From: Planctomycetaceae bacterium
GTDB lineage: Bacteria > Planctomycetota > Planctomycetia > Planctomycetales > Planctomycetaceae
Length of the DNA stretch: 64,000 nucleotides
Assembly (NCBI GenBank): GCA_014762625.1
Contig: JABURQ010000073.1
Span: 1 to 64,000 of the forward strand
Direction: 5' to 3'
This document shows, one piece after another, positions 2,072 to 17,719 of the stretch. The notes beneath the pieces were generated by a model. It saw only the letters and a program-made list of their open reading frames with translations. It was not told the origin of the DNA and searched no databases. Positions within the stretch are counted from its first letter, which is position 1; each line of letters begins with the position of its first letter. A program made the position numbers and the translations under genes.

Positions 2072-3754
2072 TCAATCCGCTCCGGGAATTTGAGCCTGAC
2101 TGCGGCTGAAGAGATTCTGCCCCAGCTTGAGTTGCCACAATGCCTCGCCCGATTGCCAGAGGACGAAGTCACGGCCGATCATCATCACGACCCCACTCAC
2201 TCCCGCCACATCGAATTCTTCCCCTTCCGTGACCGTGGTCGTTTTGTTCTCAGCGCGATTGTAAAACATCGCCTTGAGATCATCGTCGGGCTTGATAATT
2301 CCTGTCAGGTAGGTGTCGCGGGTGAAATCTTCGATCACCGAAAACTGGAACGTCTTGCTTGACGATTCCGGGGGTACACCGTTATCGGTCACTGTAAAGG
2401 TAAGTTCATAATCACCCGGAGGAGTGACCACCGGTGGCGTCCAGGTCAAGGTTCCCTTCGCGCCATCAAATTGAGCCCCCGCCGGCAATTCCCCCTGAAA
2501 AGAAAATTTCAATTCTTCGGGGGCGGTTTCAATATCGATCGCCTCCAGTTGCAATTGATATTCCGAACCCGGCAGTACTTTCTGAGGACCGATATCGGAG
2601 AGTTCCGGCGGAAAATTCGGATCTCGAAGGGTTAGTTTAACCTCTTCGCTGAATCTCGGTTTCTGTTCCCCTTCAATCCGGACGGCGAACTGCAATGGAT
2701 ATTCGCCAAGTTCGACATTTTGATCCGGTTCCCAGACCACTTCCCCCGTCTGAGCGTTCAATTCCAGACCGGCGGGAACCTCCCCTTCGACGCTGTAAAT
2801 ACGTGGCGGAGTTTTCGCATTGAATCCGTCTGCTTGTAACTGAAGCCGATAGGGACGACCGCGAACCGCAATTTGATCTCCCACATTCTTCCATTGAGGT
2901 TGGCTGGGAGGAGCCGGCTTCACGAAAAAGTTGCCGTCGATAATCCGTTGCAGATCCTGCTCGGAAATGAGCGGTCGATCTTTCCGGAGTTGGAACAATT
3001 CCACTTCCGCTCCCGGTTCGTGGTTGGCGGCGATCGTTCCTTCGTATCCGCGTTTGAGCGTCCACTGTCGGGAGTTGCCGGGAAGCACCTGAATGAGTTC
3101 GCTTCCGATCCGCACCAGAAACGACTGATCCTCGGGAAAGCCGGCGGGAGTTTTGGGAGTGAACGTCGTCGCCGTCTGACTCAAGACCTGATTGAGTCGA
3201 AAGCGGGGAAAGATCGTTTCTCGCATCGGACTGTTCGGCAGGGCCAGCGCTTCCGCGGAAAGTGTGATTTCCACTAGCGGGTTCCCGCGATGTTCGTCAC
3301 ATTCCAAACGCAATCCCGACACGCGGTGCAGAATATCGGCATTCTCGAAAGCGGCGAGAAAGCGGCATATCTGTTCGTAACTCGCCTGCGCCGACAATCC
3401 GACCCGTACCGCCGTATAAACTTTCCCGCGTGAGGAACGGCCTTCCGGTTTGACCTGCGGATTCCGGAATTGATACATGTTCGCCAACTCGGTCACCCAT
3501 TCCTGATATAACCGTTGGGCCACCAGTTCTTCGGGAGGGAGCGCCATCCGGGTCGCATTAACGACTCGAGTTTGTGCCGCCAGAAGCTGCATATCTTTGA
3601 TTTCGAGGGTATCGACCGAATCGAGCAGCGTTTGCAACTGGATCTTCTTCTCATCGATCGGATCCACAAACCAGCTGACGTACATTGGCTTTCCGAACCA
3701 GTAGAGGATCACCAGTCCGAACAGCAGGGCTAATTTTTTCTCGCGTTGATTCAT
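2072..3754 (-). CDS. GspM/PilO-like inner-membrane protein fused to Ig-like domains
   Basis: 560 residues. The N-terminus is a short cytoplasmic tail and one membrane helix (residues 8-28, LALLFGLVILYWFGKP), followed by a coiled-coil segment and a ferredoxin-like PilO/GspM-type periplasmic domain to about residue 185 (it contains the FLAAFENADILHRV stretch typical of these assembly-platform proteins). The rest is unlike GspM: about residues 290-385 and 390-485 are two putative-Ig (He_PIG / cadherin-like) repeats, each with the P-A-G-(L/A)-x-(L/F)-(N/D) and W-x-P signature, and a small C-terminal domain ends the protein. The gene follows gspL with a 12-base gap, which supports its place in the platform. 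GspM normally has about 160-180 residues, so this is a three-fold longer fusion. The Ig part might contact peptidoglycan, substrate or the secretin-like ring; that is inference. Confidence 0.8.
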   Translation of the reverse strand: MNQREKKLALLFGLVILYWFGKPMYVSWFVDPIDEKKIQLQTLLDSVDTLEIKDMQLLAAQTRVVNATRMALPPEELVAQRLYQEWVTELANMYQFRNPQVKPEGRSSRGKVYTAVRVGLSAQASYEQICRFLAAFENADILHRVSGLRLECDEHRGNPLVEITLSAEALALPNSPMRETIFPRFRLNQVLSQTATTFTPKTPAGFPEDQSFLVRIGSELIQVLPGNSRQWTLKRGYEGTIAANHEPGAEVELFQLRKDRPLISEQDLQRIIDGNFFVKPAPPSQPQWKNVGDQIAVRGRPYRLQLQADGFNAKTPPRIYSVEGEVPAGLELNAQTGEVVWEPDQNVELGEYPLQFAVRIEGEQKPRFSEEVKLTLRDPNFPPELSDIGPQKVLPGSEYQLQLEAIDIETAPEELKFSFQGELPAGAQFDGAKGTLTWTPPVVTPPGDYELTFTVTDNGVPPESSSKTFQFSVIEDFTRDTYLTGIIKPDDDLKAMFYNRAENKTTTVTEGEEFDVAGVSGVVMMIGRDFVLWQSGEALWQLKLGQNLFSRSQAQIPGAD

Positions 3755-3766
3755 AATTCACTCAAC

Positions 3767-5218
3767 TTACGAACGAGGAGTGTTCGTCGTTGTCTCGGTT
3801 GCTACAGGACGCTCCAGGCTCAGCTCAAACTCGACGGGGTATTCGGAATCTCTTCGTCCGCTACGAATGGCGGCGGGTGTCACATTGAATCCGGCGGAAT
3901 CGAACTCCCGGTAGACTTCCTCCACAACATCGCGTTCAACCGCCTGACCCTCGGCGTGGACTTTAGCCAGATTCTTTCCCAGCGCGACATCAAACTGATA
4001 TTCACTCAGATAGACACTCCCCGTTCCCGGCAGTGTCTGTTGAGTCAAGTCAAGTTCCTGCAACGTGTGGACATCGCGATCCAACCACTCTTTGAGTTGG
4101 GCATCCGTATCCAGAACCATTTGTCCGTTTGCCAGTCCGGATTTCAGATTCGACTCATCCAGTTGTAATTGTGAGATTTGCCGATCGAGATCCCGAACAT
4201 ACACGTAAAAGCGGTAATAACCCAAAGACAGGATTGTCAGGATGCCTGCCGCGTAAATGGCCATTTTACGGCGTGAATCGTCTTGGACGACTCTCTTTTC
4301 GCGCGGGTGAAAAAAATCGACCCCTGGATACTGATTCAGCAACAGACCCAGCGGCGCGATCAGCCGACTTGTATTCAGATCTGATGGTAGCGATGCCGCG
4401 ATCTTCAACGGCGGTGCGTCTTCCGGCGTCAACAGCGTCAATTGACCTTCGATCAGAGAAGACAACCCGGCGAACTGTTGGAATTCGTCGGCACCGACGA
4501 AGAAGACAGTTTGTCCTACCGTCACATCACCCAACGTTTGCTGAGCTGCGAAGAGGATACGTCGGAATTCTGAAGCAACACTTTCGCTCGAAACATCAGC
4601 GAGAGACGAAGTCTGCATCAGTTGAATAGTCTGCTGGCGGATTAACGCGACTTCCAGACGCGATCCAATAAGTTCCGCCGCGACCACTAACTCTTGCGGT
4701 GCAACTTGAGTGCTGGCACTGGCGAATTCTGCGAGCCCCAGGCTCGATAACCCGATACCTTCCAGTTCGATGCCCGCCACTTTCAGCGTTTTCTCAATGG
4801 TTTGTGCCACGGATTGATTGAGAGTGGCGGCGAGGACCGATCCGAGCTCTCGTCCCGGCTGGTCCGGTTGAGGCAAAAAGTCGATCAGAAGCTGATCGAC
4901 CGGCTGCGACGATTTCGTCGCCGCCTGCATTTGAACGATCTCGGCAAGTTCTTCTTCGGGAACGCGAGGGACATCGAGATGACGCACAATCACCTGATCG
5001 CGTGGCAGGCAAATGCGGGCAGAATCGCCCGTGATTCCCGCCTGACGCAGAAACGTTTTCAGAGCTTCGCCGGCAGCTTGAGGATTTTGTTTCGGTGCCG
5101 CGTTTTCCGGCCAGACCAGTTCCGCCGCCTGATTCAGACGAATTGTCTGACCGCTGGCTGTCGCGGCGACCGCGACAACGCCGTTGCGTGCCCAGTTCAA
5201 AATGAGAGAATCTGCCAT
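3767..5218 (-). CDS. gspL: GspL-type PilM-PilN fusion, secretion assembly platform
   Basis: 483 residues from ATG 5218 (MADSL); an in-frame TTG at 5233 would add five residues. Residues 1 to about 290 form an actin-like PilM/GspL cytoplasmic domain (VRHLDVPRVPEEELAEIV is the typical PilM segment), a single membrane helix follows at about 312-335 (MAIYAAGILTILSLGYYRF), then a PilN-like periplasmic part with a coiled coil and a ferredoxin-like fold. This is the GspL arrangement, in which the fusion anchors the GspE ATPase to the inner membrane. It lies 120 bases after gspK and 12 bases before the GspM/PilO-like gene. Classification as GspL rests on domain order and operon position. Confidence 0.82.
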   Translation of the reverse strand: MADSLILNWARNGVVAVAATASGQTIRLNQAAELVWPENAAPKQNPQAAGEALKTFLRQAGITGDSARICLPRDQVIVRHLDVPRVPEEELAEIVQMQAATKSSQPVDQLLIDFLPQPDQPGRELGSVLAATLNQSVAQTIEKTLKVAGIELEGIGLSSLGLAEFASASTQVAPQELVVAAELIGSRLEVALIRQQTIQLMQTSSLADVSSESVASEFRRILFAAQQTLGDVTVGQTVFFVGADEFQQFAGLSSLIEGQLTLLTPEDAPPLKIAASLPSDLNTSRLIAPLGLLLNQYPGVDFFHPREKRVVQDDSRRKMAIYAAGILTILSLGYYRFYVYVRDLDRQISQLQLDESNLKSGLANGQMVLDTDAQLKEWLDRDVHTLQELDLTQQTLPGTGSVYLSEYQFDVALGKNLAKVHAEGQAVERDVVEEVYREFDSAGFNVTPAAIRSGRRDSEYPVEFELSLERPVATETTTNTPRS

Positions 5219-5340
5219 AACTATAAGTCTCAAAAGAGAATCTGTTTCCCTATTTTAACACCCGAACCGCAAATTCGGACCGCCCTTCTTGGAAGATCGG
5301 GGAATTCGATGGGGGTTAATCGTCATAATCGGCTCCGCAA

Positions 5341-6999
5341 TCACTCCTCGGTCCCCTGCTGCCAGTCGAACAGAGAATACCCGGCCCCAAGCCGCGAATA
5401 GTCGCCGACCGACAGCAAAGTCGGCGGAGACTCAGACGCGTCGATCATCACTTTCAGACGTGTGGAAATCCCGGTCCGACTGAAGTATCCGACGACCTGA
5501 GCGGTCAGAACGTCGCCTCCCGAAGTGATATAGGGATCGAGCAACCGCATCGTTTCCAGATCGACGAGCCCCTCCACCATTAACCAGCAGTTGGTCGATC
5601 GAGACGCCGCCAAATCCGGATTCGGACGCCCCGAGGCCAATTGATGACCGGCAGACACAATGGAGGACGCGAGTTCTTCGGTCATCGCGGGGATCCCCAT
5701 CAACGTCTCGAAACGCGCCTCGTTGACATTAATCCGCCCTTCAATCGTGGGGGAATCAATCACACCGAACGCCTCGTTGATGACCGGGAAGCTCGCCGAC
5801 AGTGATCCCGAATCACTACTCCAGGGACTCACGAGCGTCTGCTGCCCCCCTTCCATTTGCGCTTCGACTTCGGCATCGACCAAATCATACAACGAGCGAA
5901 TCTCGAAATCGCCGCCCGAGGAAAGGTCCATCCCGTTTCGGGTCACCTGCCCTCCATTTGCAATCGCGTCGGAGATACCCTCGGCGAGATCGTCCAGAAT
6001 CGCCTGATCTTCAAGCGATAGATCGGAGAAATCTCCCCCCGCCAGTCCGGTCGGCGTGATGTCGAATTCGTCCCGGTTGGAGGGACCGAAAATCCGATAA
6101 GCGACGACGAACGTCGCCACTTCCTCTCCGAACTCTTCGTCGAGTTGATCGTAGAGATCGGTCAAGGTGTTGGTATTGAGCGGTATTTTGGGACTGCCGT
6201 CCAGACGCAGGTTCGATTCGCGAGCAGTCACGGTCAGATAGTCCGACCAGCCGGCATCCAGAATGCCGTCCGCATTGTCGAACGGCTCCGTCACTCCGGC
6301 ATCGTCTTCGTTCGCATCGAGCAGGCCGTTGCGATTGGTATCTTCTCCATAGAGCAGCGTCGCGGTCACGCCGTCGACCGCCAGTAACTCATCGAGAGAA
6401 AGCAGCGGCGCGTTTTTGGGTTTACGGGGGGGATAAAAATTCGCGTAGGCCTCAGCTTCTGCACCGAAATAACGAGCCTCGGTATCGGCGTCGATCCAGT
6501 CGAGAATCGCATCGGCGATCGATTCCGTCATGGACGGAAGCTCCATCAGGAAGAAGCGGACTTCATCCTCCGTGAGACCGCTGTTGGCGAGTGCGTTCAA
6601 ATTCAGCTTCGCGGATTCATTCCGCAATCCAAACCGCACTCCCGCCGTCGAGGAAGGGGCGTCAACGGGAGCCACGACGGAAAAGTATCCGACGGGGCGT
6701 CCTTCAGTCCCCTCCTGAACCACAATTTGATGAAACTGGTCTGGATTATTGAACAGATCGGGCGGCTCTTCCGAAGCTTTCAACGCGACGAGCGATAATG
6801 TCCAATCAACTCCCGAATCCGCCAGCGTCCGAGATTCGGTCAGCAGTCCGGTCCGAATCGAGGCTTCGTATTCCGCCAGCATCACTTCCGAATAGGTATA
6901 AGCCGCCAAAGAGAGCATCGCCACGATGACCAGGACCGCCAGCAAGGCGCTACCGCGTCGATTATCTGAAGGAGGGAGAGAGACGTATTGCCGCTTCAT
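5341..6999 (-). CDS. gspK: GspK-like minor pseudopilin
   Basis: 552 residues. The N-terminus has a short basic leader ending RRG followed by SALLAVLVIVAMLSLAAY, the class III signal of GspK, which lacks the Glu at position 5 found in other pseudopilins. Large size and helix-hairpin-helix-like segments (LNLNALANSGLTEDEVRFF and INVNEARFETLMGIP) match the GspK family, whose members usually have about 300-350 residues; this one is longer. Residues about 218-231 carry a calcium-type loop DTNRNGLLDANED. GspK caps the pseudopilus tip together with GspI and GspJ, whose genes lie directly upstream. The ATG overlaps the gspJ stop by four bases, so translation is probably coupled. Confidence 0.85.
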   Translation of the reverse strand: MKRQYVSLPPSDNRRGSALLAVLVIVAMLSLAAYTYSEVMLAEYEASIRTGLLTESRTLADSGVDWTLSLVALKASEEPPDLFNNPDQFHQIVVQEGTEGRPVGYFSVVAPVDAPSSTAGVRFGLRNESAKLNLNALANSGLTEDEVRFFLMELPSMTESIADAILDWIDADTEARYFGAEAEAYANFYPPRKPKNAPLLSLDELLAVDGVTATLLYGEDTNRNGLLDANEDDAGVTEPFDNADGILDAGWSDYLTVTARESNLRLDGSPKIPLNTNTLTDLYDQLDEEFGEEVATFVVAYRIFGPSNRDEFDITPTGLAGGDFSDLSLEDQAILDDLAEGISDAIANGGQVTRNGMDLSSGGDFEIRSLYDLVDAEVEAQMEGGQQTLVSPWSSDSGSLSASFPVINEAFGVIDSPTIEGRINVNEARFETLMGIPAMTEELASSIVSAGHQLASGRPNPDLAASRSTNCWLMVEGLVDLETMRLLDPYITSGGDVLTAQVVGYFSRTGISTRLKVMIDASESPPTLLSVGDYSRLGAGYSLFDWQQGTEE

Positions 7000-7934
7000 A
7001 ACTCCACCTCCATCAAAGGTGGGGGCGCCATCGCGATCGCAACCACAAACCGGATCATATTCGATGACAGCCCGGACGGATCCTCACCAAACAGAATCGC
7101 GTTTGTATTCACTTCCAGTTCTTTGAATGTGAGCGTGACCTCCACCGCACTCGGAAGCCGCTCCTGAATCGCCGAATCCCATTGAGTCGCCCACTCCACG
7201 CCGTCAAAGTAACGAAACTGGACGCTGGAGATTTCGGGAGCCAGCAATTCCGCGTCGAGGGCCAACAGATCGATAGCATCGTCGGAATAGCTCAATTCGA
7301 GCGCATCTCGTTCGAGTCGCGACAAACCGCCAGTAGGTATGTTGGACAGGGAGGCTCCGCTTGACTCATCGAGCGTTCCCACCAATGAACCGATCGAAGA
7401 CGTCCCGTTCGCAAACCAGGAGATAGTCCGTACTCCACTATCCGTTACTGTCTCGACCGATTCCTGATCGTCCTCCGACATCGCGGTTTGCGTGGCGATT
7501 CGCGCCGGTAGACGCTCGGGGCGATTCACGAAGACGACCAACGAAGACTCATCGCCGTACAATCCCTGTGTCTTCTTCAGGATCGCCTCTGACGGGGTCA
7601 GAAACTCTTCGCTGTCCTCGATTCCAAGGCTCGATTCGATGTCATCCTGATCGACATCTTCGGCCGCAGTCTGATTGCTGGCTTCTTCCGTTACAAATTC
7701 CTCAAGATAGGTAACCGATCGCAGATCGTTCGTCATACGCAAATAGATCGCCCGAACCAGTTGCGCCCGTTCCATTCGCTTGCGGCCCATCGATTCCGCC
7801 CGCAAGGTCACCATCAGCGTCGCCCCAATGGATCCGATCAGCAGAATTCCCAAACCGAGAGCGATCAACAGCTCCAACAGCGTAATCCCCTGCCGTGAAT
7901 TCGACGGGGAGATAATCGGAGTCATCCGTTTCAC
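6996..7934 (-). CDS. gspJ: GspJ-like pseudopilin
   Basis: 312 residues with a prepilin leader: basic segment, Gly, then ITLLELLIALGLGILLIG, with Glu at position 5 of the mature helix. Such proteins are cut and N-methylated by a prepilin peptidase, which is not encoded in this window. The globular domain contains a long Asp/Glu-rich insert (about residues 90-110) and ends with a beta-rich segment (VQFRYFDGVEWATQWDS) typical of GspJ. It overlaps gspI and gspK by four bases on either side. The GspJ assignment is from gene order H-I-J-K and size, since minor pseudopilins diverge strongly. Confidence 0.82.
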   Translation of the reverse strand: MKRMTPIISPSNSRQGITLLELLIALGLGILLIGSIGATLMVTLRAESMGRKRMERAQLVRAIYLRMTNDLRSVTYLEEFVTEEASNQTAAEDVDQDDIESSLGIEDSEEFLTPSEAILKKTQGLYGDESSLVVFVNRPERLPARIATQTAMSEDDQESVETVTDSGVRTISWFANGTSSIGSLVGTLDESSGASLSNIPTGGLSRLERDALELSYSDDAIDLLALDAELLAPEISSVQFRYFDGVEWATQWDSAIQERLPSAVEVTLTFKELEVNTNAILFGEDPSGLSSNMIRFVVAIAMAPPPLMEVEL

Positions 7935-8371
7935 GATCCACCTCCCAACGCCGCGTCGAGGAAGATTTGCGGATCGCGGACAAACCGTGTCGCCGAATAT
8001 TCGTGGGCCGAGACCGTCGTATCGCCGTCCCGATGAGCGGTGACCGTCACCTGCAACAAACCCTCGATGCCGGCATCATCGACGGACATCGACCACAGCC
8101 AGCCGGGATAATCTTCCGATTCTTCATCGGTTGTCGATTGCAGCGTGAGCACCCCGGCGACCGCCTCATTGAGTTTGGTATCGACGAGCATCACCGCCTG
8201 GGTCCGGAATTGCGCCTGCACGGACGCGCGATGACCGTGATTCATTAACTGGAACAACGCGGTGATCGAACCAAGCAGGACTGCGACGGCAATCACCACT
8301 TCCAGCAACGTAAACGCGGAACGTCGGGAAGATTTCCCACTCTGTCTCAATGTTTCTTTCATTCGCATCAT
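7931..8371 (-). CDS. gspI: GspI-like pseudopilin
   Basis: 146 residues; basic leader followed by AFTLLEVVIAVAVLLGSI, a class III pilin signal. The residue before the mature Phe is Ala rather than the usual Gly, which is worth noting because prepilin peptidases prefer Gly there. The size and the VLLGSITALFQLMNHG start of the long helix match GspI, the second component of the pseudopilus tip. Four-base overlaps with the genes on both sides indicate translational coupling. Confidence 0.8.
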   Translation of the reverse strand: MMRMKETLRQSGKSSRRSAFTLLEVVIAVAVLLGSITALFQLMNHGHRASVQAQFRTQAVMLVDTKLNEAVAGVLTLQSTTDEESEDYPGWLWSMSVDDAGIEGLLQVTVTAHRDGDTTVSAHEYSATRFVRDPQIFLDAALGGGS

Positions 8372-8967
8372 CGTTGCCTCCTCTCAATCGAGGAGAGAGA
8401 GGCGGTTCCCGTCAGCGCCCGCACCGCAAAGGAGAGGTATTGGGCCTGGTCGTCTTCCAGTTCGAAGGTCGCATCACTACCGCTGCCGTCTGGATAAAAG
8501 ACGATCGGCAACGACCAACGGACGTTGGTCAGGTTGAGTTCTTCCGGGACGTCCGCCAGCAGTTTCGGAGAGATCGAGACGCTGCCCGACTCTTCACCTT
8601 CGGGAGTTTTGAAGGTGAATTCTTCGGGAACCTGCCCCGCCCGCGCGGGAAGCGTCAACGTCACTCCCGCATCCTCCGACTCTCCGGTGGGAGGAGTATC
8701 TTCAGTCGGCACCATCACATAATGTCGCCCGTTCGGTTCGTAGAAAAACTGGTACGGGATACCGTTGTCGATGGCCGCGAGACGCGCGGCGGAGACCGTA
8801 TCGTAGACCCGCCGCCCGTGATCCTTCAGTTCCGCAGTCTGATAAAAAGCCAGCATTCTCGGCCAGACAATCCCCGCAATCAGCAGCATTACTCCCAGAA
8901 CCAGGATCAGTTCAAACAGAGTAAAGCCGGACCTGCGCGAATCAATATGGCGAGAGACCGTCTTCAT
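8368..8967 (-). CDS. gspH: GspH-like pseudopilin
   Basis: 199 residues with the prepilin signal G-FTLFELILVLGVMLLIAG and Glu at mature position 5. The following segment (LKDHGRRVYDTVSAARLAAID) matches the GspH/FimT family start of the globular domain. Members act as minor pseudopilins between the GspG shaft and the I/J/K tip. It starts 28 bases after gspG and overlaps gspI by four bases. Confidence 0.84.
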   Translation of the reverse strand: MKTVSRHIDSRRSGFTLFELILVLGVMLLIAGIVWPRMLAFYQTAELKDHGRRVYDTVSAARLAAIDNGIPYQFFYEPNGRHYVMVPTEDTPPTGESEDAGVTLTLPARAGQVPEEFTFKTPEGEESGSVSISPKLLADVPEELNLTNVRWSLPIVFYPDGSGSDATFELEDDQAQYLSFAVRALTGTASLSSIERRQR

Positions 8968-8995: not shown

Positions 8996-9457
8996 CTACA
9001 GATTGGCTTGTCCCCAGTTCGTGATGTCGTCTCCACCACCATCCTGGTTTTGCTTATCCGGTCCCGAGGACCAGATTGCCGGTTTAACGGCGTTCGGATC
9101 CTTCGTATTCGGAAATTCGTAGAAGAGCGGAACACCCCAGGCGTCTTTCGGGATTGCTTCCAGGTACGGTTGGATCATTTGTCCTTCGGCGGACTGACTC
9201 GACATCAGCATCTGCACAACTTCGGTTTGCCCCCCTTGCGGGAACTCCGCATTGTGACTGGCGGCGTACTGTTTCACCGCTTGCTCGAAGTTGGCGATGT
9301 TGATTTTCGTCTGTTTGATGTTCGCTTCCTGCTGACGTCCCAACAGGTTCGGAACGACCATCGCGGCAATCGCCAGAATAATGCCCAGTACGATCAGCAG
9401 TTCGAGCAGGGTAAAACCGCCGCGAGGCGTGGGACGTTGTTTTCGTGAATTGTTCAT
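8996..9457 (-). CDS. gspG: GspG major pseudopilin
   Basis: 153 residues from ATG 9457, chosen because GGAGTGA lies eight bases ahead; an in-frame TTG upstream (9484) has no such site. The leader ends RGG and the mature helix begins FTLLELLIVLGIILAIAAM, followed by the hallmark GspG segment (PNLLGRQQEANIKQTKINI) and a C-terminal region with DAWGVPLFYEFPN and a run of Asp/Gly residues (DGGGDDI) like the calcium site of GspG. It forms the pseudopilus shaft. The gene sits between gspF and gspH. Confidence 0.93.
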   Translation of the reverse strand: MNNSRKQRPTPRGGFTLLELLIVLGIILAIAAMVVPNLLGRQQEANIKQTKINIANFEQAVKQYAASHNAEFPQGGQTEVVQMLMSSQSAEGQMIQPYLEAIPKDAWGVPLFYEFPNTKDPNAVKPAIWSSGPDKQNQDGGGDDITNWGQANL

Positions 9458-9524
9458 GGGTGTTTCACTCCGTAGTTCGATCAATGATTCGAGAGGATAT
9501 AAGGATGGTTCCTGAGACGGGACG

Positions 9525-10733
9525 TTACGACAGTCCCGACATCATCAGGACCGGGTATAACAGTGCAAAGATGATGTACACAACAATCACCGCCATCAAC
9601 AGCAACATCAACGGTTCGACCATGCGTACCAGCATATCGAGTTGACGGTTGGTCTGACGTTCGAGATTGTCGGAAATATTAATCAAAACCTGTTCGAGGT
9701 TGTTCGCTTCTTCGCCGACCGAGATCATTTCCATAATTTCTTTGGGAAATTGCCCGGAGGCTCTCAACGGCTCGGCCAGTGATTTACCGCTGGAAACGTT
9801 GTCCGCCGCCTCACCAATCGCGACCGAGAGCACACGGTTCCCGGTGGCGTCTTTCGCGATGCGCAACGACTGCAGGATCGGAACGCCGTTATGCAACAGC
9901 GTACCCAGAATGCGACAGAAGCGGGCGATGGCGAGATTCTTGACGATCACCCCGATCCCCCACGCTTTCAGACGAAATAAGTCGAATTTTTCACGACCGT
10001 CTTCGGTCTCCAGCCAACGCTGAGCCGCCACGCCCAATCCAACGAGCGCCAACGCAGCGAGAATCCAGTAGTTTTGCAGGAACTCGCTAAGCGCCAGCAA
10101 CGAGGTGGTCGCCATCGGCAATTCGCCCCGTTCCTGCATCCTCGAAAAGATGGGCGCAAATTTCGGCACGAAAACCACCATCATCACCGTGACGATCGAG
10201 GCGCCTGCCAGACACAAAAATGAGGGATAAATCATCGCGCCGAGGACGCGGCTTTTGAGTTCTTCCTGGTGTTCGTTAAAGGCGGCGACTCGCTTAAGCA
10301 CGTCTTCGAGAAAACCCCCTTCTTCTCCAGCGCGAACCATACTCAACACAAGTTCGTTGAACGTTTTGGGATGTCGAGCCATCGCGTCGGCGAGTCGCGT
10401 CCCGTCCGCCACCTGATCGTTGATGTCCTGGATGATCCCCTTCAAACCTGAGTGGGAGGTTTGTTCGATGATCAATTGCAACGAACGGAGCAGCGGCACG
10501 CCGGCGGCCAACAGATCGGCCAGTTTCGTGTAGAAGCCGGTCAGGAGTTTGTTACTGACTTTTTTCTGCGATTTGGCGGCGGCTTTGACCGATTCTTCAG
10601 ACAATTGAACGCGCATCGGGAACATCTGCCGACTCGAAAGGATGCCAAGGGCATCCTGTTCGCTGGCGGCCGTCAAGACGCCGCTGGTTTGCTGACCCGA
10701 GGCGAGTCGGGCTTCATACTGAAATTCTGGCAT
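9525..10733 (-). CDS. gspF: GspF inner-membrane platform protein
   Basis: 402 residues, the usual GspF/PilC length. Two homologous T2SSF domains (about residues 68-191 and 270-393) each carry the (L/T)-x-L-x-x-x-G-x-x-L signature (ADLLAAGVPLLRSLQLI and LGTLLHNGVPILQSLRI) and are separated by membrane helices; a further helix ends the protein (LMLLLMAVIVVYIIFALLY). It organises the pseudopilins and the ATPase in the inner membrane. It lies 30 bases after gspE. Confidence 0.95.
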   Translation of the reverse strand: MPEFQYEARLASGQQTSGVLTAASEQDALGILSSRQMFPMRVQLSEESVKAAAKSQKKVSNKLLTGFYTKLADLLAAGVPLLRSLQLIIEQTSHSGLKGIIQDINDQVADGTRLADAMARHPKTFNELVLSMVRAGEEGGFLEDVLKRVAAFNEHQEELKSRVLGAMIYPSFLCLAGASIVTVMMVVFVPKFAPIFSRMQERGELPMATTSLLALSEFLQNYWILAALALVGLGVAAQRWLETEDGREKFDLFRLKAWGIGVIVKNLAIARFCRILGTLLHNGVPILQSLRIAKDATGNRVLSVAIGEAADNVSSGKSLAEPLRASGQFPKEIMEMISVGEEANNLEQVLINISDNLERQTNRQLDMLVRMVEPLMLLLMAVIVVYIIFALLYPVLMMSGLS

Positions 10734-10763: not shown

Positions 10764-12452
10764 TCAGGAATATTCTCCCTTACTGATTCTCAGAACTTCG
10801 TCGATGCTGGTGACTCCTTCGAGAACTTTGTTCCAGCCTGATTGCCGCAGGGAAACCATCCCGTTCTTCAGAGCGTGGTTGCGGATGGCTCCCGTACTGG
10901 CGTTGTTCACCGTCATATGTCGGATTTCTTCATCCATCTGCATCAATTCGAAAATACCGGTTCGCCCGGCATAGCCGATGTCGCGACAGTCGCGACATCC
11001 GACCTCTTTGTAAATCGGGCCCTCGATCTGTTTGACCGGAAAATCGACCGGAAAATCTTCAACCAGCGAATTGTCGATCGCTTTACACTTCGTACACAAT
11101 TTCCGCAACAGTCGTTGTGCGAGTACACCTTCCACCGTACTGGCAACCAGATACGGTTCGACGCCCATATCGATCAAACGGGTCATCGATCCGGGGGCAT
11201 CGTTCGTGTGCAGCGTGCTGAACACCAGGTGCCCCGTCAGAGACGCCTGAATGGCGGATTGGGCCGTCTCACCATCGCGAATTTCCCCGATCAGAATCAC
11301 ATCCGGGTCGTGACGAAGAATACTTCGCAGTCCGGCAGCAAAGGTCAACCCGATCCGCGAATGGACCTGAATCTGGCTGATACCGGTGGAGTGATATTCG
11401 ACCGGATCCTCGACGGTAATAATTTTGGTCTTGGGGTCTTTGATCTCGTTCAACGAACTATACAGCGTACTCGACTTACCGCTACCGGTCGGACCGGTGA
11501 CGAGGATAATCCCGTGCGGCAGGCTGATCAGTTTTTTGAACGGCGAGATGATTTCCGGCGGCATCCCGACGTTGGCCAGGTTAAAGACCATGCGTTCTTT
11601 ATCGAGCAGACGCATGACGATCCCCTCTCCGAAGATCATCGGGATAATCGACACACGAACGTCGATTTCGCGTCCCTTCACTCGCAGCTTGATGCGACCG
11701 TCCTGAGGTAATCGTTTCTCGGCGATATTCAAATGCGACATGATCTTCAATCGCGTAATGATCGCTGAGGCAAAGTGGTTGATTTCCGGCGGAACTGGCT
11801 GCACACGAAGCAATCCGTCGACCCGGAAACGAACCGTTAATCCTTTCTCGTGTGGTTCGATGTGAACGTCACTCGCCTGCTGGTCAATCGCCTCAACCAG
11901 CAGCTCATTCACCAACCGAATGACCGAAGCGGCTAACGCCTCTTCCGCCATCTCGCCGATGTCTTCGTCGATTTCCTCCAGCAACTCAACGCCGTTTTCC
12001 TGTTGTCGTTGAGAGACGAGTTGGTTGATGGTATCACCGCCGACGCCGAGATGAGTTTTGATCATCTCGACAACTTCCGACTTCCTGGCGAGCACCGGTT
12101 TGAGTTCGCGACCGCTGAGCGACGAAAGCTCGTCGAGCGATTCGAGATCGAAAGGGTCTCCCGTGGCAACGTGAACCAGATCGTCCACTTCACGGAACGG
12201 CAGGATCGAATGACGGTAGATGACCGTCATCGGAAACGTTCGCAACAGGTCCAGATCGATCTCGGTATTCTGGAGATCGACATACTCCATGCCGAGCGTG
12301 TCGGCCCAGGTCCGAAGGGCGTCCTCCTCGGTAATCACTCCCATCTCGACGAGTTGTTCGTCGATGCGATGGCCGTTGCGCTGGGTGTGCGCCAAATCCA
12401 ACTGCTGCTGGGAGATGAGGCCTTTCTGGAGTAGTAACTGATCGATCTGCAT
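10764..12452 (-). CDS. gspE: GspE/PilB-type secretion ATPase
   Basis: 562 residues. An N-terminal MshEN-type domain (about 1-150) is followed by the secretion-ATPase core: Walker [10 protein letters not shown] near residue 320, Asp and His boxes, Walker B region [19 protein letters not shown], and a tetracysteine zinc motif (CTKC about residue 455, CRDC about 488) that marks GspE/PilB rather than PilT. It powers pseudopilus assembly and docks on GspL. The gene is the second of the operon, 83 bases after the GspD-like gene. Confidence 0.95.
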
Positions 12453-12535: not shown

Positions 12536-15500
12536 TCAGCGTCCGCGGCCACCAAAACGCGAACCACCGCCACCGCGTTGTCCACCACCACCGGGGGAAA
12601 AGAGACGAGTTCGTGCTCCGCCGTCCTGGCCGCCACCGCCGCCTTGTTGCATCCGTTCCCGCATGCGTTGTTCCATCATGCGACGGAACTGGTCGGCTTC
12701 ACGTTGACCTTCGTTGTCGCGGTCACCGCGATTCCCCTCATTGCGGTTATTGGAGTCATCGTTGCCGCCTCGACGTTCGGTCGATGTCGCACTGACTTTG
12801 ACTTTCGGTAAGAGCGATTGCAGTGTTTGCTGCACCATGATGGGATCGGCGGATTCCAATCGCACTACACGAACGGTCTTGTTGGCCTCTTTGGCGGATT
12901 GATCCACCGATTCGACTAAAGTTTGAATCTCCTGGAACAGGGCATCACTCGCCGACACGATCAGTTGGCTGGTGCGTTCATCCACACCCAACGTCAATTT
13001 CGCCAACTGGGGACCGTTGGCTGCACCGCCATTCTGCCCCATCAGCATTGCGGCAAACGGATTATTGCCACCGTTGTTGCGTCCACCGGCCTGCGGCCCC
13101 GTACTGAGGTAATCTTTATAGACATCGCTGACGATGTTGAAGACTTCATTGACATCCGCGTATTCGACCGGAATTTGACGCGGCTCGCGATCACGAAGCG
13201 ATTCGGGAAGATCGGAGGCGTCGAGCACTTTCAGGAATTGCTCCACCTCGGCCACTAGATGATTCGGCCCGGTCACAAATAACGCATTCAGACGAGTCTC
13301 GGGAATGATTTTCAATGACGTCGCACTATCCAACGTGGCGCTCAAACCCGAAACATCGGCCATCTGTTCCCCAAGTCCCATCAAGCTTCCCATCAAGGAA
13401 CTGTCTCCGCCGCTGGAAGATGAAACCGACGAATCAGGAATCAGTTGTTCCAGGGTGTAAGCCACTTCCGTAGCATCCGTTGATTGCAGATAGAAGAGCG
13501 TCCAGTTTTTTTCCGGCGGCATCGCCAAACCGATCGCCTGAATGAGTTCTTTCATCAATGTGATCGCTTCAGGATCATCCGAACCGACGACGAGATTGTC
13601 TCCCTGGACCGTGAGAATCACCGGAGGAGCCTCGTCACCACTTGCTGCCCCCGTATTTTCGGCCTCAGGTTCTTCGAGACGGCGTTCGAGCTCGTTTAAC
13701 AGGTTTTCTTCTGGATTGGACTCGGTTTGCGGTCGCTGACTGGCGGGCGTGAGGTCGAGAACTGGTTTCTTATTTTCCTCGATCGCCTGTTGTAATTCTT
13801 CGTCCATTTCCTGCAACACCTGATCGACGCTCAACTCCTCGCGTTGCTGAACCAGCAGTTCCAACTCGCGATACATCTGGGCCGTAAACGAATCCCCCTT
13901 AGGAGCGCTTTCGCGAGTCGAGACATCCTGCGAACTCTCGGAGGATGTGCCGCCGGACTTCGAAGGAACGTACTCCCCTTTCACCGGATTTCGCGTTCCG
14001 GGAATTACGACGCGAATCGGATTCGGTTGCTGCGATTCCCAGTTACGTTGCAGGATGCGAATCATGTCAGCCGCGTTGCGACCGCCGAGCGGTATTGAAA
14101 TGACCGGCCCTGAAACACTTTGTTTCTCCGTTCCGTCTTCTCCCAATTCCGCCAGTACAAGCTTGATCTGCGTCAGTTGTTCGTGCGAACCGCGGACCAG
14201 CAATCGACGTCCAAATGCATCCGCCTGAATCACGGGAGCAGCTTCTCCATCCGCTATGAACAGTGAATCCAAGGATGCTGCCGCACTCACCGGATCGAGT
14301 CGGCTGAGAGGGATCACAGAAACAGCAACGTCTCCCCCTTCGCCGTCCAGTTCTTTGATCATCCGCCCGATTTCTTCGTGTTCGGATTCGGTGGCCACGA
14401 TATGAATCCGTCGCGAACGTCCGTCCTCATTAACGACAACCCCCGGGCGAATTGCACTGAGCGTCTTAGTGATCTCGCGGGCATCGGCATTCTGAACAAC
14501 ATACACCTTCAGGTACGGTTCCCCTTCGGCGACTGTTGTCGTGCCGTCCCCCTCAACATCGATCGCCTTGATAAATTCCTCAATCAGTTTCATCGTGGCC
14601 CGCGGTGCCGTTACCAGCAGACTTTGAGTTCGGCTATCAGAAGTCACGTTCAAGTCGCTGGAACCGGAAGATCTTGACGAACTTGAAGACCGGCGGTTGT
14701 CAGCACCCGTAAAAGAGGAAACATTCGCGATCGTTTTCTCGATTCCGAACTGCTGTCGGACCATCGTTTCCGCTTCACTGGCCGTGAGATTCTCCAGAGT
14801 AAACTGTTGAAAGATCACTTCTTCGGGATCCTCTTCAGAGGTCACGCTTTCCAGCAACTGCGAAATCGCTCGCAGATTATCGCCGATATCCGTTACTAAC
14901 AGAGAATTCGACGCACGTAACGGAACCACACTTCCCTGCGGGCCCAAAAGGGCTTCCACTTCGCGAGCTGCCTGATCGGCTTCAATCCCGGCCAGAGGCA
15001 CGCGGATTCGCATAATTTCGTTCTTGCCCCGATTTTTCAGTTCGCTGACTTCCACATTCGGAATCAGATTCGGGGGAATCCCCTCGTCGATATTGAGAAC
15101 CACAAGAAAATTATCGCGACGAACCAGCAAGTACCCTTTTTGTAGGAGATAGCCGTTCAGAACGTCCAAAGCTTCCAGCGGCGTGTATTCCTTGGTGTCG
15201 TAGTAATTGAAGGTTCCGGGAGGCGTGACGTTCAGATCGATCGTCAATCCCGCCAGTTCCGCAAACATTTTGAGGACATCGGCCCAGGGAGCGTAGCGGA
15301 AATTGAAAGAGACTTTTTTCGTATCGGACCCTTTGAGCCCACCAAACCCGATGGTTCCATCCTGCTCGGGAAGTTTGGCGGCGGGATCAGATCCTTCTTC
15401 GGTCGTCTCGTCCGCTGCGGCGGTCTCCATCGGCGATGATTCATCAGCCTCCACTCGCGGTGCGGTAATGGCATTCTCCACCTGGGATGGTTTCACGGGA

Positions 15501-16327
15501 GTAGCTTGCGCCACACTACCGAAGGAGGCCAGCGGCCCTTCTCCTGGTCCATCTGGACGAATCATCTCACTGTTAATATTGGTTTTGGCATCAGTCGCTT
15601 TACTTCCGATTGCGGAAAAGTTAGCTGATCGGGAACCGGGGGCTCCGTTGTTCACGATCACTTTCCCGACCATCCCTTCCCATTTCTGACGTTGCTCCGG
15701 AGTCAGGACCGCAAAGATTTTTGAATTCCACTCCTGTTCGAAGGCTTCACGTTCCTCTTCCGAGGCACGGAAGCCGAGTTCGCGGCGGGCTTGTCCCCGT
15801 TCTTCCATCAATTCGCGAATTTTTTCCTGCTGGGCGTCCGTCAGTTCCAGTTTCTGGATCGTATCCGGCGTGAGTAAAGCTCGGTGCCCCTGAAACTGTA
15901 CTGAGAGTTGTTGCAGGCGGTTGACTTTATCACCGCCGATCAACTTTTTGATTTCTTCATCCGATTGAGCTCTCTTTTTCTCCATCATCGCCGACATTTC
16001 CGCGCGAATTTTTTCGCGTTCCTCGTCGGACTTGGCTTCCCGCATTCGTTCGAAATAAGGCTGCATCTCTTCCCGCTGCGGGCGGAATTTCTCCGCAATA
16101 CTCTGGGCTTTATCAATCTGATCCTGAGATAGATTCAATTCCTGTTGGGTTTCTTCCCGCATCAAGGTTCCTGTCAATCCCGGACTGAATCCCCTTGAGA
16201 TCCCAACTCGCGGCCCCCCAAAAGGTTGAGCATGAGCGGAGGAGCCCATGCATAGAGAAATGACTCCCACACAGAGCAGTAAACCGCTCGGACAATGGCG
16301 AAGGGATAACTGTCGAGATGAACTCAT
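12536..16327 (-). CDS. GspD-like secretin N-domain protein with Spy/LTxxQ-like front domain
   Basis: 1263 residues from ATG 16327, chosen because it starts a clean signal peptide ([19 protein letters not shown], cut before QPFGG). Residues about 45-230 are helical and charged with repeated LTxxQ motifs ([27 protein letters not shown]), resembling Spy/CpxP periplasmic chaperones. From about residue 350 come an N0-like domain ([20 protein letters not shown]) and at least six N1-type ring domains, with Ser-, Glu- and Asn-rich linkers, and a Gly/Arg-rich tail. No C-terminal secretin barrel domain is recognisable after the N-domains, which is odd for GspD. It heads the gspEFGHIJKLM operon. Whether it forms a pore or only a periplasmic ring cannot be told from sequence. 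Confidence 0.85.
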
Positions 16328-16738: not shown

Positions 16739-17719
16739 ATGAGCCAATATTCTTTTTTTCGCATTCTGCTCACCTGTGGTTTGTTGTTCGGTACGTCTGT
16801 GGGCATCGCAAACGCCCAGGATAATAGTCGATCCGAGCGGTTTTTCGGCTATCTCGATCGCGATAAAGACGGTCGCCTGAGTAGTGAGGAAGCCCGCCGG
16901 ATGCCAAGTTCCATTCGCGAAGCATTCGAACGTGCTGACTTTTCACTGGATCGTGGAATTTCGAAAGATGATTTCATCCGAGAAATGCCGCGCGTGATGG
17001 AAGAGATGCAGCGTCGCCGCGAAGAGGAACGGAATCGCGACCGAAGTCGCGACGATGACCGGCGCCGTGAAGAGCCTCGCCGTGAAGAGAGTCGCCGCGA
17101 TGATGATCGCAGAAGCTCTCGGGGATACACCTATTCGCCCCGCAGACGTCCCAAAATAACTATGGACATTCCGTCAAAATTCGAGGACGGCGATACGGAC
17201 GAGGACGGACAGATTGGCCTCTACGAATGGCGTCAGTGGAAACCGGAGGAGGAGAAATATCATTTTCCGGTCTACGACATCAATCGGGATGGATTCCTGA
17301 CGCCGCGCGAGTTGAGTAACCCTCCCAGTCGCGAGGAAATCGACAATTACCTTGCCTCGATTGGCGCTCCCCCTCAACCGGCCGGGCGTCGTCCTTCACG
17401 CCCCTCCTCGGGATCACAGACGCCGTCTCTCAACCCGACCGCACAAGCAAATAAACCTGTACCAATCGGCGATCAACCAAAACCCGCCACTGCAAAACAA
17501 CCCCAGCCCAAACCAGCGGAACAGGACGCAACCACAAAAACCGCCAAGCTCTTCTTCAGTCAAATGGACGTCGATAAGAGCGGACAACTCACCCCGGACG
17601 AATGGGAACGAAGCCGACGTCTGAAACCGAAATTTGAAGAAGTCGGCATCGATTTGTCGAAACCGATGAATCTCGAACAGTTCACAGACGCCTATCGTCA
17701 AGCTTATGGCGAGACCTGA
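16739..17719 (+). CDS. Exported EF-hand protein
   Basis: 326 residues with a signal peptide cut after residue 26 (IANA-QD). Four canonical 12-residue calcium loops are visible: 40-51 (DRDKDGRLSSEE), 152-163 (DTDEDGQIGLYE), 180-191 (DINRDGFLTPRE) and 277-288 (DVDKSGQLTPDE). Between the first and second lies an extremely charged Arg/Asp/Glu tract (about 90-128), and a Pro/Gln/Lys-rich linker spans about 210-265. Such EF-hand proteins are abundant in planctomycetes; their role is not established. It is transcribed divergently from the secretion operon and may be exported. An enzymatic domain is not seen. Confidence 0.88.
   Translation: MSQYSFFRILLTCGLLFGTSVGIANAQDNSRSERFFGYLDRDKDGRLSSEEARRMPSSIREAFERADFSLDRGISKDDFIREMPRVMEEMQRRREEERNRDRSRDDDRRREEPRREESRRDDDRRSSRGYTYSPRRRPKITMDIPSKFEDGDTDEDGQIGLYEWRQWKPEEEKYHFPVYDINRDGFLTPRELSNPPSREEIDNYLASIGAPPQPAGRRPSRPSSGSQTPSLNPTAQANKPVPIGDQPKPATAKQPQPKPAEQDATTKTAKLFFSQMDVDKSGQLTPDEWERSRRLKPKFEEVGIDLSKPMNLEQFTDAYRQAYGET

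Follow-up and report, generated by a model that had tools for sequence, protein, structure and literature searches.

A barrel-less ring protein heading a planctomycete type II secretion operon as the probable inner part of a two-gene secretin

Why would a type II secretion system (T2SS) operon be headed, at the position expected for gspD, by a secretin-like gene devoid of a secretin barrel? This question is raised by a stretch of 64,000 nucleotides from a Planctomycetaceae bacterium (GenBank assembly GCA_014762625.1, contig JABURQ010000073.1, positions 1 to 64,000), hereafter the window, in which a first-pass annotation made from the letters only had proposed two answers, namely a periplasmic ring or scaffold in place of the outer-membrane pore, or a barrel supplied by another gene. 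The results presented here make it likely that this ring-only secretin paralogue, hereafter the ring protein or D*, forms the inner ring module, on the side of the cytoplasmic membrane, of a two-gene T2SS secretin, the barrel part of which is encoded at the other end of the operon; such a two-gene form of the type II channel is common in the planctomycete genomes sampled. Judged by the barrel, the ring protein is not itself a secretin, and it probably works as part of one. Throughout the text, G, C, L and f numbers designate genomes, contigs, loci and families, respectively.

The limits proposed in the first-pass annotation proved exact: the ring gene occupies 12536..16327 on the minus strand, with its ATG at 16327 and its stop at 12538-12536, and codes for 1263 residues. 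A signal peptide read by eye (residues 1-33, 16229..16327, cleavage after AHA) suggests that the ring protein is exported to the periplasm. It precedes an LTxxQ/Spy-like helical front (residues 45-222, 15662..16195), which a linker separates from an N0 domain (residues 336-419, 15071..15322). The latter is recognised by the NCBIfam GspD model TIGR02517, whose best stretch covers residues 342-529, and by a local N0 hidden Markov model (HMM), with an E of 7e-39 in a model that includes the ring protein itself. A chain of N1-type ring units delimited by profile matches then extends over residues 443-1143 (12899..15001), one unit being split by a poorly conserved helical insert (residues ~780-900), and the protein is completed by a half ring unit (residues 1153-1181, 12785..12871, model positions 1-36 of 63, E 3e-4) and by a Gly/Arg-rich tail read from the sequence (12539..12784). 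The N0/N1-type content and the tail announced by the first-pass annotation are thus both present, Pfam Secretin_N matching in 6 stretches with an E of 4e-49 and 165.1 bits against a cut-off of 28.2. Its claim that no barrel is visible also held in a Pfam scan of the ring protein, where PF00263 was absent at E up to 10. An assembly fault of the ring gene was considered as the cause of the missing barrel and discarded, given that the gene has its own stop, that gspE follows 83 bases further on and that the relatives agree.

Ring-only proteins, defined by a length > 600 residues and a score > 100 bits in a search with the ring protein, amount to 44 with that of the window. Thirty-two of them were aligned and scanned, once five truncated at the end of a contig or of a fetched stretch, three of exceptional length, three members of a second paralogous family and that of L018 had been excluded. 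In these 32 proteins, Pfam detected Secretin_N in every case and PF00263 in none, the Pfam N0 model PF21305 matching just one; a locally built barrel HMM likewise gave no match in the ring-only proteins listed in that comparison, and PF00263 was present in all 27 intact GspDs. The profiles of ring proteins and GspD align over 719 columns with a probability of 99.95, from N0 to about the start of the barrel, in a printout that stops before the end of the alignment; the ring protein is therefore homologous to the periplasmic part of GspD. The ring gene is under purifying selection, with a ratio of nonsynonymous to synonymous substitution rates (dN/dS) of 0.087 between L018 and L019 (whole open frames, 1294 codons, protein identity 88.5%), and 17 columns are invariant across the 32 proteins; the synonymous rate dS between these two ring genes and that of the window is 3.29 or saturated. 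The second ring-only family comprises L111:4672-8022, L112:503-3562 and L113:4208-7102 (964-1116 residues, N0 plus ~6 units, no barrel match), and no T2SS operon was recognised around it in the stretches read. At the scale of the phylum, 68 of 148 surveyed genomes gave a match at E ≤ 0.001; the weak ones found outside the class come mostly from frames of 600-1300 residues, which were not counted as ring proteins, and the only two that were read (G182 and G092) are ordinary-sized GspDs with a barrel.

Where, then, is the barrel of this system? The gspE-to-gspM run described as a complete operon by the first-pass annotation is real, but the operon goes on past gspM to a second Secretin_N gene, which starts at 1855, 216 bases beyond gspM, and reaches the contig end (2..1855, minus strand). 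The ring gene is therefore not the sole GspD-like gene of the operon. This second gene, the 5' part of a barrel-bearing gspD, comprises N0 and ring units, with its own N0 match at C189:1442-1669 (C189 being the window contig), the rest being cut off. The first frame of contig C181 of the same genome (G000:C181:3-1970) matches PF00263 with an E of 6.9e-44, shares with the window gene an overlap of 36 residues that contains three differences, and most likely represents the barrel half lacking there. The last bases of the contig (window 1-34), where gspD breaks off, resemble what we take to be a Nextera adapter, so the break looks like an assembly end. A loss of the barrel from the whole system had been envisaged, and was abandoned once the C181 frame and the second Secretin_N gene, which lies at the contig end, had come to light. 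Two further secretin-like observations were made in the same genome, where long proteins of 1444 and 1667 residues (L116:5842-10176 on C33 and L117:3557-8560 on C178) give partial secretin-barrel matches.

In relatives, the arrangement is seen intact. L019, located on a contig of G003, a genome of the same genus as that of the window, has a gspD of 1266 residues immediately after gspM, and L018 has one of 1313 residues after gspM, on a different contig. The order D*-E-F-G-H-I-J-K-L-M-GspD is found in seven loci (G003, G006, G010, G016, G024, G026 and G174), gspD being intact in five of them (1266-1362 residues) and truncated in G006 and G174, where the fetched stretch ends. In G046, the ring gene has gspM and gspD as its immediate neighbours on either side; in G050, it comes after gspM and only a 223-residue start of gspD follows before the contig end. 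The barrel from another gene, as the first-pass annotation had suggested, is thus found as an intact GspD at the end of the operon in relatives and, most likely, as the C181 frame in the own genome. Among 59 related genomes, any match at all is obtained for the ring protein in 57 and for the GspD barrel in 59, many of these being other secretins. With thresholds chosen afterwards (E ≤ 1e-20 for the ring protein, which 50 of the 59 genomes satisfy, five through fusions, and E ≤ 1e-40 for the barrel), 49 genomes have both (5 of them fused), 8 have neither (seven of family f2, plus G041), one has the ring protein only (G034, a draft in which the gene lies at a contig end) and one GspD only (G053, ring match with E 1.6e-15, at a contig end). 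The corresponding Fisher p is 3.6e-8, kinship not being corrected for.

Fused, split and N0-complementary versions of the pair exist, which gives the ring protein and GspD the appearance of two parts of a single secretin. Five of the six genomes of family f3 (G040, G045, G049, G055 and G058) code for a single chain of 2137-2328 residues whose first half matches the ring protein and whose second half matches GspD with its barrel. In the sixth, G053, a ring-like frame and gspD are found on two contigs, possibly as a broken fusion. A second system in two of the three f4 genomes (G046 and G050) contains a fusion of 3240-3269 residues after gspK, L and M. The barrel was confirmed by Pfam in L088 and L104, the two scanned out of these seven fusions. 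Each fusion has one N0, which groups with the N0s of ring proteins in the N0 tree, and its match to the ring protein starts only near the N0 of the latter; in the three fusions that were read (L088, L105 and L107), the two parts are separated by a Gly/Arg-rich stretch resembling the ring-protein tail.

As regards the N0 domain, the HMM built from 71 N0 segments, partly from ring-only proteins, found it in 44 of 44 ring-only proteins. Ten of the 27 intact GspDs (G018, G021, G032, G038, G042, G046, G047, G051, G056 and G059) have none. N-terminal and barrel parts are hence borne by two genes, as in a split secretin, with overlapping content where GspDs keep N0 (17/27). A complementarity is also suggested at the junction of the two proteins. 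Among 41 ring-only proteins whose C-terminus is complete, 29 have a last unit match that ends in the first half of a unit, and the stretch equivalent to residues 1141-1180 is occupied in 33 of 33 aligned ring proteins, which supports the half unit. On the GspD side, the first unit match covers a second half only in G046 and in the N-terminal pieces of G043 (430 residues) and G050 (223 residues), with spans of 35-62, 26-63 and 30-62, respectively, out of 63 model positions, and the N-termini of these three GspDs, by reading, agree with the matches.

The order of events can be approached with a tree of 45 barrels, rooted on the ordinary-sized GspDs of G182 and G092. Nine of the ten N0-less GspDs cluster in one clade with a support of 100, next to the N0-bearing clade to which the window belongs (98), and the tenth, that of G046, groups with the f3 fusions at a support of 65; neither of the two main clades includes the single-chain forms. 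The most economical scenario is that of a single-chain ancestor that underwent fission into a ring protein and an N0-less GspD, GspD having later gained an N0 in the clade of the window. Since the support of the deep nodes is 60 and 65, one fission cannot be told from several, or from re-fusions. In the N0 tree, which carries no support values, neither the ring-protein nor the GspD group is monophyletic, because the GspD of G008 has an N0 of the ring-protein type. The latter protein (L115:2461-5616, on G008:C63) has 1051 residues, with this N0, two units and a GspD barrel, and stands among the ring proteins.

In terms of mechanism, the N0 and the N1-type units of the ring protein would most likely form a stack of rings that meets the GspD ring stack end to end. 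The joint stack would then constitute a single tall channel across the periplasm, terminated by the barrel in the outer membrane, and the joint itself may be an N1 unit completed across both chains. A stack of such a height would suit the wide planctomycete periplasm.

Several observations weigh against a two-gene secretin of this kind. GspD keeps its own N0 in the clade of the window (17 of the 27 GspDs), and the ring protein is therefore not needed there to provide one; moreover, a stack with two N0 rings would be out of the ordinary. The half units on which a cross-chain joint would be based are weakly matched, E ≤ 0.01 being reached by just 6 of the 29 on the ring-protein side, with values up to 4.3 for the others, while those on the GspD side have an E of 0.083 (G046), 0.1 (G043) and 0.0099 (G050); in 12 of the 41 ring-only proteins, the last match is a full unit. 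In other genomes, the ring gene lies beside gspE and gspD elsewhere, far apart in several of them. The GspD, GspE, GspF, GspG and GspK matches are all under the NCBIfam equivalog cut-offs. Finally, structure prediction, proposed as a check in the first-pass annotation, gave no usable model of the ring region: that obtained with AlphaFold2 (AF2) from three sequences for residues 330-1185 has a mean predicted local distance difference test score (pLDDT) of 36.6 and was set aside.

What else could such a protein do? Its front bears on one answer. The LTxxQ front claimed by the first-pass annotation gives an LTXXQ match at E ≤ 0.01 in 14 of the 32 scanned proteins, this one included, though the score here, 17.7 bits, is below the Pfam cut-off of 24.3. 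The AF2 model of the front (three sequences) is an all-helical bundle with a pLDDT of 76.1; Foldseek returned no match for it at E ≤ 0.001, and a VIA structure comparison placed STV, CnrX and Spy in rows 1-10, with Z values of 7.8-6.1 that are below the caution level of the tool. Separate small LTxxQ-like genes were also observed just upstream of gspE in three genomes (L131:1117-2136, L134:2399-3187 and L133:17901-18641), above the Pfam cut-off in G042 and below it in G038 and G051. Owing to these profile matches, structure rows and separate genes, the front is probably Spy/CpxP-like; its role, at a guess, might be substrate holding or peptidoglycan contact. The same three lines of evidence would fit a periplasmic factor serving the assembly or holding of GspD or of substrates, in which a Spy/CpxP-like chaperone front would be tethered to GspD-binding secretin-like domains outside the finished channel. 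We regard this as unlikely, though to be taken seriously: the fusion with the barrel in one chain and the ten N0-less GspDs better fit a structural part of the channel, and the fusions match the ring protein only from near its N0.

An anchor standing beside the GspD channel, where the ring protein would form its own stack or string linking the inner-membrane platform to peptidoglycan or to the outer membrane, appears improbable for a similar reason, the fusions and the N0-less GspDs pointing to one common axis. It would nevertheless account for the barrel-less ring-only proteins of 2095-2690 residues and for the N0 kept by 17 of the 27 GspDs, and another inter-membrane link may be needed since no GspC profile match exists in the genome: PF11356 gave none at E ≤ 1, in a search that a divergent GspC would escape and that matched in 3 of 14 control genomes, including E. 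coli. The scaffold replacing the outer-membrane pore, as proposed in the first-pass annotation, agrees with the absence of a barrel from the ring protein, but it has become very improbable now that a full GspD is seen to close the same operon in relatives and that both pieces of GspD, most likely split between contigs, are found in the own genome. As for a decaying, functionless gspD duplicate without barrel, the 719-column homology with the GspD ring part is what such a duplicate would display; the low dN/dS between the two relatives, the match in 50 of the 59 genomes, five of them with fused versions, and the 17 invariant columns make it scarcely credible.

A two-gene secretin as favoured here would not be without precedent, split secretins being already known in rhizobial type III secretion systems (T3SS) and in the mitochondrial T2SS. 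RhcC1 (NolW) and RhcC2 constitute a split secretin in the rhizobial T3SS and in the rhizobial-like T3SS of Pseudomonas syringae (PMC3574062, PMC3973906), and there as well the N- and C-terminal secretin parts lie on two separate genes. That system is nonetheless of type III, and the accessible parts of these reports describe the division of one gene into two or three and mention neither added ring units nor an LTxxQ front; in planctomycetes, both products are many-ringed and the N-terminal protein mostly exceeds 1000 residues. In the mitochondrial T2SS, the available part of the report (PMC8134430) describes a GspD accompanied by GspDN1-3, GspD and GspDN1 giving a two-hybrid signal. As in the present case, separate proteins carry Secretin_N domains, some of them half domains, and no GspC was found there. 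It differs in being eukaryotic, each GspDN consisting of one domain or half a domain and N0 being missing, whereas the ring protein keeps it. Compared to the canonical T2SS GspD (PF03958 and PF00263; PDB 5wq7 being the best-matching chain), the N0 and N1-type domains and the gspE-M operon are the same, but the canonical protein comprises N0-N3 and the barrel in one chain, while the rings are here more numerous and divided between two genes. A long stack of N-domain rings is also known from Thermus PilQ, a single chain of the type IV pilus whose six rings reportedly extend across the greater part of a wide periplasm (PMC5745081). Likewise, DotD of the type IVB secretion system (T4BSS), according to the accessible part of its description (PMC2951367), is a separate protein with an N0-like domain, thought to act with an outer-membrane partner; it is a lipoprotein of a different secretion system, no ring chain being described there. 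The planctomycete case differs from these in its bacterial type II setting, in a ring protein that keeps N0 and bears an LTxxQ front, in the large number of ring units and in the side-by-side existence of fused and split versions. No ring-only secretin paralogue or split T2SS secretin of planctomycetes was described in the titles and abstract beginnings among the matches listed, in a literature search that left aside most subscription papers and all preprints.

The other genes of the operon all lie on the minus strand of the window. They are gspE, coding for an ATPase with an MshEN domain (10764..12452), gspF (9525..10733), gspG (8996..9484) and gspK (5341..6999), assigned with Pfam and NCBIfam; gspJ (6996..7934, T2SSJ); a gspH-like (8368..8967) and a gspI-like (7931..8371) pseudopilin gene, assigned from N_methyl, just under its cut-off for the second, and from gene order; a gspL/pilM-like gene (3767..5233) with a sub-threshold PilM match; and, in gspM position (2072..3754), a gene with He_PIG immunoglobulin-like (Ig-like) domains placed by Pfam and order, without any NCBIfam match. 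Beyond the 83 bases between the ring gene and gspE, the gaps from gspE to gspM are of 12 to 107 bases or are replaced by overlaps of 4. The best NCBIfam models for the operon genes are GspE, GspF, GspG and GspK, making them T2SS-type homologues. The MshEN domain of gspE, which scores 67 bits with Pfam, suggests control by cyclic di-GMP.

A few neighbouring genes were also observed. Divergent from the ring gene, an EF-hand protein is encoded at window 16739-17719, and a similar-looking gene occupies the same place in L026 (9205-10209). In this close relative, an FkbM-type methyltransferase gene (L026:17373-18194) stands between gspF and gspG, where the window has a gap of 40 bases. A probable lipoprotein, with a Cys motif near its start seen by eye, is encoded after gspD in a relative and on C181 (L027:12686-13573 and L029:1971-2891); it has no informative Pfam match and is a candidate pilotin.

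The number of ring units varies widely in this family. As matches of a first unit HMM (length 104) overlapped the neighbouring units, a second one (length 63) was used for counting, and it gives approximately 6-7 units in most ring proteins. Long ring-only proteins of 2452-2690 residues, with 24-31 unit matches, occur in G021, G026 and G032, and a ring-only protein of 2095 residues is encoded upstream of gspE in G151. Outside the class, five genomes of the phylum were seen to code for giant single-chain secretins of 4213-5073 residues, each near at least one T2SS-like gene: L141:2308-17529 (G084), L143:2065-15936 (G128), L144:2727-16601 (G061), L145:3719-17536 (G172) and L146:3096-15737 (G140). 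The two that were scanned, L143 and L146, contain 41 and 42 Pfam Secretin_N stretches, respectively, and one PF00263 each; the ring-unit numbers of planctomycete secretins range from 3-4 to over 40. Boedeker et al. 2017 (PMC5394234) describe a planctomycete periplasm that varies and can expand considerably, together with crateriform structures, numbering about 104 per cell in Planctopirus limnophila, which appear to keep the cell membrane close to the wall. It is tempting, albeit doubtful, to propose that the height of the channel is tuned by the number of ring units, carried by one chain or by two mutually completing chains, so as to bridge or pin a wide periplasm, with the ring protein and GspD as the backbone of the crateriform structures and the giant secretins as the extreme of the series; the literature search found no paper joining these structures with type II secretion, and their link with the operon described here is speculation.

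If the ring protein is indeed one half of the channel, this would be, as far as the literature search reaches, the first bacterial type II system with a split secretin. The pair being present in most of the 59 related genomes and fused in others, both states are open to comparison, and the range of ring-unit numbers constitutes a natural series with which the effect of ring number and the crossing of a wide periplasm could be approached. The operon would also offer candidate genes for the envelope structures of planctomycetes.

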